Below are positions 40,887 to 42,422 of a stretch of DNA of 64,000 nucleotides, in pieces; the first letter of the stretch is position 1; each line of letters opens with the position of its first letter. The position numbers were made by a program, and so were the translations under genes. A model generated the notes under the pieces. That model made no database searches. It was not told the origin of the DNA and was given only the letters and a program-made list of their open reading frames with translations. Source of the DNA: Rhodocyclaceae bacterium (GTDB taxonomy: Bacteria; Pseudomonadota; Gammaproteobacteria; Burkholderiales; Rhodocyclaceae); contig JAQTNK010000020.1 in the NCBI GenBank assembly GCA_028713915.1, forward strand, positions 1 through 64,000, given 5' to 3'.

Positions 40887-40919
40887 TTGACAATCCAACA
40901 TAGACAGTCTAATTATACT
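40887..40919 (+). promoter_or_regulatory. Candidate MerR-type promoter with internal palindrome
   Basis: TTGACA (40887-40892), palindrome TAGACAGTCTA (40901-40911), -10 TAATTA (17-bp spacer) or TATACT (21-bp spacer). Confidence 0.5.
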
Positions 40920-40949
40920 GTACATAAATTATTTAGACTATCCAAAGTC

Positions 40950-42422
40950 ATGCTGTCCAGCAAAGAACTCATTGAACTGACGGATATTTCCAGGGCGACC
41001 CTGAACAACTACATTGCCTTGGGCCTACTGTCCAGGCCACTGGTACTCAATCCCGGAACGGGCGCGGCCGGTCCTCGCCAACTCGGCTTCTTTCCCGACG
41101 AAACTGTCGAACGCGTACGCCAGATCCAGCATCTCAAACAGGAGGGTTTCAGCATGAAGGAAATTGCAGCTCGCATCGGCGCGGGCAGCGCAGTGCCGAC
41201 AGCGGCACCGACGGGCGGGGCAACCATCGCCGCCCTGCCCTCCTCCAGCGTGCGCGTCACGATCGAAGACATTGCCTACCCTGCCTACATGGTTAACCAC
41301 AATTTCGAACTGGTGTGGCTCAATCAACATGCCCGCACCGAATTCCTGGCGGGAGCGGAGGAGTTGCCGGCCGCCGGCGAGGAACGAAGCATATTCCGCC
41401 TGTTCGCGGCCAGTTCCACGACAGGGCTGGACGGGCTGTTGCGGTTCCAGGTCGCGCTTGCCAAGTCGCGCGTATCTCCTGCCGGCTTCGCCGCCATGTG
41501 CCACGGCATGAATCCCGAGGACTTCAGCCGACTCCAGCGCGTTTACGCCGACGCCACTGGTGAGCCGGCACGTCCGGTCGTTGATGCCTGGATCGACTTT
41601 CCCGGCGCGGATGGCCAACCGCTGCGGCGCCACATCTATGCGTCGTTCTTTCGCGAGGGCATTTTCGTCGTGCTCATTCCCGACAGCGAAGATTCGGATT
41701 CCATCCAAGGGCTACTGGCGCGCCGCGACGAGGTCATTCGCAGCCTGCTGCGCCATCGCCTGCCGGTACTTACCCATCTCGCCGTGCTGGTCGCGGACCT
41801 GCAAAGCTCGGTCAAGATCTGTTCGGAATTGCCGCCCGACGAGTATTTCAAGCTCATCAACGAAATCTGGGCGGCGATGGAGCCGATCTTCCGCAAATAC
41901 CATGCGACCCATGGCAAGCACGTCGGCGACGGCATGGTCTATTACTTCTTCCCGCAGCCGGACAGCGACTACCTGTTCAATGCGCTCTGCTGCGCGCAGG
42001 AAGTGCGCCGGGAAATGATTCGCATCAGCAAGGCTTGGCAGATCGCCAAGAACTGGCACAACGAGTTGTATCTCAATACCGGCATCCACGAAGGCCAGGA
42101 ATGGCTCGGCACGTTCCAGTCATCGACGAGCGTCGAGTTCGTCGTGCTTGGCGACACCATCAACCAGGCCGCGCGCGTTTCCGACTTCGCCCGCTACGGC
42201 AGCATATGGGCCACCAAGAGCCTGGTCGGCAAGCTGTCGCGCGAGATTCGCGAGAAAGTTCAATACGGCGTCAGCCGCCGCGGCGCCGACGGCCGCGACA
42301 CGTTCGTCACGTCGAGCTTCGCCATGGTCTCGTCGTTGCAGGAACAATCCGGCGAGCATAACGAGAAGCTCCGCGATATCGCCACTTTGCCGATCACCCA
42401 GATCGTCGAAGTCGCCGTCTAG
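40950..42422 (+). CDS. MerR-HTH / PAS-like / class III adenylate-guanylate cyclase domain protein
   Basis: N-term MLSSKELIELTDISRATLNNYIALGLLSRP...FFPDETVERVRQIQHLKQEGFSMKEIAARI (MerR HTH); middle PAS-like IAYPAYMVNHNFELVWLN; C-term LAVLVADLQSSVKICSELPPDEYFKLINEIWAAMEPIFRKYHATHGKHVGDGMVYYFF...VLGDTINQAARVSDFARYGSIWATKSL (cyclase). Confidence 0.85.
   Translation: MLSSKELIELTDISRATLNNYIALGLLSRPLVLNPGTGAAGPRQLGFFPDETVERVRQIQHLKQEGFSMKEIAARIGAGSAVPTAAPTGGATIAALPSSSVRVTIEDIAYPAYMVNHNFELVWLNQHARTEFLAGAEELPAAGEERSIFRLFAASSTTGLDGLLRFQVALAKSRVSPAGFAAMCHGMNPEDFSRLQRVYADATGEPARPVVDAWIDFPGADGQPLRRHIYASFFREGIFVVLIPDSEDSDSIQGLLARRDEVIRSLLRHRLPVLTHLAVLVADLQSSVKICSELPPDEYFKLINEIWAAMEPIFRKYHATHGKHVGDGMVYYFFPQPDSDYLFNALCCAQEVRREMIRISKAWQIAKNWHNELYLNTGIHEGQEWLGTFQSSTSVEFVVLGDTINQAARVSDFARYGSIWATKSLVGKLSREIREKVQYGVSRRGADGRDTFVTSSFAMVSSLQEQSGEHNEKLRDIATLPITQIVEVAV

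Follow-up and report, generated by a model that had tools for sequence, protein, structure and literature searches.

Does a DNA-binding domain fused to a nucleotide cyclase serve other promoters, or only its own? A sequence-only reading of the stretch analysed here (the window, 64,000 nucleotides from a Rhodocyclaceae genome) had described one gene product as a MerR-type HTH, a PAS-like centre and a class III cyclase on a single chain, and this overall domain call holds. We regard the product as a soluble bacterial enzyme, the predicted maker of a cyclic-nucleotide signal, and consider it probable that it is a PAS-gated class III cyclase carrying its own autoregulatory DNA-binding domain.

The coding sequence, as defined by the ORF call and the alignment of homologues, comprises 490 aa on the plus strand and runs from ATG 40950 to the stop codon at 42422. 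Strand and end agree with the frame first proposed. The start given for it, TTG 40887, is wrong; we rejected it because it is the 5′ half of the −35 hexamer TTGACA and because homologues align from ATG 40950. The gene is separated from a divergent tadA-like gene by a common 82-bp intergenic region, and a convergent ankyrin-repeat protein gene (42423–43400, minus strand) ends one base past its stop codon. Also in the window, a single ORF at 39447–40340 (minus strand) combines YkuD L,D-transpeptidase and GNAT acetyltransferase domains in one chain, and some relatives have related ORFs close to the cyclase gene. ARAGORN reports a tRNA-Ala(ggc) at 29806–29903 (minus strand), which may be a false positive: at 98 nt it is longer than usual for tRNA-Ala, and Rfam at its gathering threshold detects no tRNA anywhere in the window.

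Residues 3–73 (40956–41168, plus strand) match the MerR_1 profile (PF13411) with 30.0 bits against a cut-off of 21.6, giving the proposed MerR-type winged HTH the support of a hidden Markov model. The helix ISRATLNNYI is conserved across homologues in the alignment, and the HTH is the confident part of a full-length model that, built from eight sequences, is otherwise poor (pLDDT 51). MerR-family proteins carry a long dimerisation helix after the HTH. No coiled-coil helix of this kind is predicted in residues 78–125, a low-confidence part of the model, and residues 78–99 (41181–41246, plus strand) form a variable linker with 5–32% identity to homologues. Across the 121 family genomes searched, this HTH was detected in no other gene.

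The upstream region contains an array of putative operator sites. The −35 hexamer TTGACA (40887–40892, plus strand), which is also a TnnACA half-site, belongs to a TTGAC element conserved upstream of most HTH-bearing homologues. Downstream of it, the palindrome TAGACAGTCTA (40901–40911), the main operator, was noticed in the first reading; it is real and conserved among homologues. Beyond this single palindrome, a motif scan finds a weak operator-like site, TATACTGTACA, with two mismatches (40914–40924), and a second site, TAGACTATCCA, with one mismatch (40934–40944), 33 bp after the first. By inspection and spacing, the candidate −10 region (40910–40919, plus strand) offers either TAATTA with a 17-bp spacer or TATACT (40914–40919) with a 21-bp spacer. 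The array spans the −35 element, the spacer and the leader.

The common motif, T(A/G)GAC-W-GTC(T/C)A with at most one mismatch, occurs upstream of 17 of the 19 HTH-intact genes, in many cases at least twice per gene and typically between −35 and −10; the background is about 0.1 site per kb. Most Rhodocyclaceae genes have a copy, at times carrying two or three mismatches, that begins 13–14 bp downstream of the start of TTGAC, and further copies lie about 20 or 33–35 bp away. The two HTH-intact genes that depart from this pattern, L018 and L033, have weak sites only. L033 (genome G006) keeps the HTH but not the PAS domain, and Asp takes the place of its transition-state Asn; it is possibly a decaying copy. 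Half-sites of the form T-n-n-A-C-(A/T) are enriched about threefold in homologue promoters (118 versus 39 expected), a count to which the operators used to derive the motif contribute.

Where the HTH is missing, truncated or diverged, the array disappears: six of seven such homologues have no operator site and the seventh, L022, has one weak site, a contrast confirmed with wider scans. The association of sites with HTH state (17/19 versus 1/7) gives a Fisher P of 0.0008 that ignores kinship, so the separate losses are the better evidence. Mapped on the cyclase tree, loss or divergence of the HTH requires four changes, at least three of them forced by well-supported branches, and the cyclase is kept in the homologues in which the HTH is lost. 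In the homologue L024 (recorded as L024/L010), whose recognition helix has diverged, another perfect palindrome, AGATAATTATCT, stands in place of the common operator at −75, a similar distance upstream of the cyclase gene; as a single case this is suggestive of a changed operator code.

In which direction would the HTH act? Classical MerR promoters have a 19–20-bp spacer that holds the operator, and the main palindrome had been assigned to this MerR position. Its place is indeed between −35 and −10, yet a consistent 19–20-bp spacer cannot be demonstrated, as our spacing test gave no clear preference for 19–21 bp and the placement of −10 is ambiguous. A classical activator, in which the liganded protein would sit in an over-long spacer, untwist the DNA and switch on its own gene in positive feedback, would suit the main site after TTGAC in most Rhodocyclaceae promoters and the −10-like hexamers that can be read at 20–21 bp in several of them. 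The absence of a clear spacer preference, the lack of a predicted dimerisation helix in the low-confidence model and the further sites downstream of −10 argue against it, and we hold this explanation to be unlikely. Because of those downstream sites, repression fits better than the classical MerR mode.

A closer parallel is offered by the CarH and CarA repressors, whose MerR-type HTH binds TnnACA half-sites overlapping promoter elements and, in CarH, represses by covering −35 or −10 (PMC9304148). They differ in having a cobalamin-binding domain and direct 11-bp repeats, whereas the protein described here combines PAS and cyclase domains with inverted repeats, and Pfam finds no match in it to the cobalamin-binding domain typical of CarH and LitR. 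Since the half-site is shared and the array lies over the −35 element, the spacer and the leader, repression is our first choice: on site positions and by analogy, the HTH probably acts as a repressor.

The centre of the protein has no Pfam match, so the PAS-like call finds no support at that level in the window protein; the predicted fold is nevertheless of PAS type. As the full-length model was poor, we folded the centre alone (residues 96–276), which gave a PAS topology with pLDDT 73 and pTM 0.73. Its best match among solved folds is 3pxp (Z 9.9 over 143 residues), with ordinary PAS domains behind it (Z 8.4 over about 105 residues). This structure is MltR of Chloroflexus aurantiacus, in which two additional helices separate strands 2 and 3; a fatty acid was used to model the molecule bound in the solved protein (PMC3406030). 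P111, A112 and N125 are spaced as the conserved Pro110, Ala111 and Asn124 of MltR (PMC3406030). The MLTR_LBD profile, which describes the ligand-binding domain of MmyB-like regulators, matches several homologues below threshold (best E 2.7e-4, isolated domain); it also weakly matches many other places in the examined genomes, and the match alone therefore says little. When PDB sequences were searched with a profile of the centre, a single chance-level match resulted. A PAS-type fold for residues 101–248 (41250–41693, plus strand), with the MltR ligand-binding domain as the best match, is thus supported by modelling, and by analogy a lipid-like ligand would be no more than a reasonable guess. 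A conserved helix of the model (residues 250–268; 41697–41753, plus strand) connects this domain to the cyclase.

The C-terminal domain (residues 277–439; 41778–42266, plus strand) matches Guanylate_cyc (PF00211) with 43.3 bits against a cut-off of 21.9, in line with the proposed class III cyclase, and the motifs quoted for it are present as given. Its solved relatives include CyaB 3r5g (E 4.5e-8), 2w01 and CyaC 1wc0 (E 2.5e-7); with a profile built from eight homologues, the best such match improves to E 3.7e-11. We assigned catalytic roles from the established class III structure via alignment to solved cyclases. None of the 27 aligned rows departs from the metal ligands D283 and D327, the purine contact K323 or R409, and N405 is Asn in 26, so that the two metal Asp residues and the transition-state Asn and Arg required of a class III cyclase are present. 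In most adenylyl cyclases the second purine-contact position is Asp or Thr. Here this position, 398, is Val in 21 of the 27 rows, including the window protein, and Thr in the other six; the adenine-specifying pair of Lys with Asp or Thr is thus kept at K323 and mostly Val at 398, and the product may be cAMP or cGMP.

A catalytically dead cyclase fold, serving a transcription factor only as a dimerisation or nucleotide-sensing module, would be consistent with V398 and with the modest Pfam score. The invariant Asp, Lys and Arg residues, the nearly invariant Asn and the retention of the domain where the HTH is lost speak against it and make it improbable. In all pairs tested, the cyclase also shows the tightest constraint of any domain (dN/dS 0.03–0.13, versus 0.08–0.17 for the HTH and 0.12–0.26 for the PAS domain), and sequence conservation indicates that it is likely to be enzymatically active. 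With an active site intact apart from Val398 and an HTH above its profile cut-off, neither part of the fusion is contradicted. The host genome contains five class III cyclase matches, and 17 matches to cNMP-binding domains, possible receivers of the signal.

Does the HTH have other targets? Genome scans with strict patterns place the degenerate palindrome TRGACWGTCYA at only two sites in the 3.84-Mb genome, the gene's own promoter and one other. The promoter-shaped pattern TTGAC-N8/9-TDDACWGTYYA has exactly one match in each of eight of 12 genomes, always the gene's own promoter, and no match in the remaining four. The exact palindrome occurs at three or fewer places per genome, and most matches other than those at the gene and the recurring site described next lie inside long open frames.

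A second exact site recurs, as part of a longer palindrome, TAGACTGGACTGTCCAGTCTA, and variants before a TetR-family regulator that, in the window's own genome, adjoins an efflux-pump adaptor-like gene. In several Rhodocyclaceae genomes this longer palindrome includes the cyclase operator core; it lies around position 4801 of L064 (C5:119300 in the window's own genome) and is also found in L053, L057, L061, L069, L070 and L071. Since it also occurs in G029, a genome without the gene, and in G019 and G008, where the copies of the gene have no HTH, we rejected it as a second target and take it to be, probably, the operator of the TetR regulator.

In the genomes searched, a promoter-type site is thus found only at this gene, and the strict-pattern scans reveal no conserved second target that would support a link between cyclic-nucleotide synthesis and the control of other promoters; weaker targets may exist. 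With the promoter-shaped pattern confined to its own gene and the TetR site explained, the HTH seems dedicated to that gene rather than a regulator of other promoters. The earlier proposal of autoregulation gains from the same comparisons of sequence: the array is conserved, absent where the HTH is lost (apart from the weak site of L022) and, in promoter form, restricted to the gene's own promoter in the genomes searched.

Of 199 genomes in the same family, 20 contain homologues, and the class sample adds one more genome. Further away in the phylum, two of 61 sampled genomes of a distant family have proteins of about 43% identity and the same architecture. None of the four other genomes of the window's genus examined has the gene, two of these genomes being well below complete. 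No relative of the whole protein was found in phages, viral contigs or plasmids, and the neighbour set differs among relatives, with no conserved operon or partner gene. On one contig, a Sedimenticola MAG carries two copies that lack the HTH and are similar to the same degree (L012, 3489–4517 and 5106–6134), either a tandem duplication or an assembly artefact. That the protein is a one-component regulator of a regulon with imperfect sites, its cyclase reporting or modulating, is the least probable explanation: the scans covered strict patterns only and the promoter of the divergent tadA-like gene lies within the same intergenic region, but the promoter-shaped pattern is restricted to the cyclase gene, the recurring second site persists where gene or HTH is absent, neighbours vary, and the HTH has been lost several times while the cyclase was kept.

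Fusions of HTH and cyclase domains are already known. Rv0386 of Mycobacterium tuberculosis likewise has a class III adenylyl cyclase domain and an HTH on one polypeptide, together with an AAA-ATPase (PMC3938503), whereas no AAA-ATPase is matched by Pfam here, the HTH is of MerR type and a PAS domain lies between. MltR and MmyB-like regulators (3pxp) share the order of HTH and PAS-type domain and the spacing of Pro-Ala and Asn, but have an Xre-type HTH and no cyclase. CyaB (3r5g) and CyaC (1wc0) share the class III catalytic domain, with other N-terminal domains and Thr in place of Val at the second purine contact. In the open-access literature searched, neither a MerR–PAS–cyclase fusion nor a cyclase with a dedicated autoregulatory operator is described.

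For the autoregulated cyclase that we favour, a ligand, possibly lipid-like, in the MltR-like PAS domain would change the connecting helix and thereby the activity of the cyclase dimer. The HTH would bind the operator array over its own core promoter and leader and, most likely, repress its own gene, a feedback that would hold the amount of cyclase. The output to the cell would then be the cyclic nucleotide and not an HTH regulon. A direct coupling of DNA binding to catalysis, by which the cyclase, according to its ligand or substrate state, would itself set transcription of its gene, is conceivable though rather doubtful; if true, one protein would control enzyme level and signal level together.

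The fusion thus builds a DNA-binding domain into a predicted second-messenger enzyme, and comparative genomics points to one target, its own promoter. It also yields an operator code, open to experimental test, for a MerR-type domain outside its familiar context. If our reading is true, the gene would be a compact natural example of a self-limiting signal generator and an exceptionally clear instance in which an HTH and its operator have disappeared jointly.
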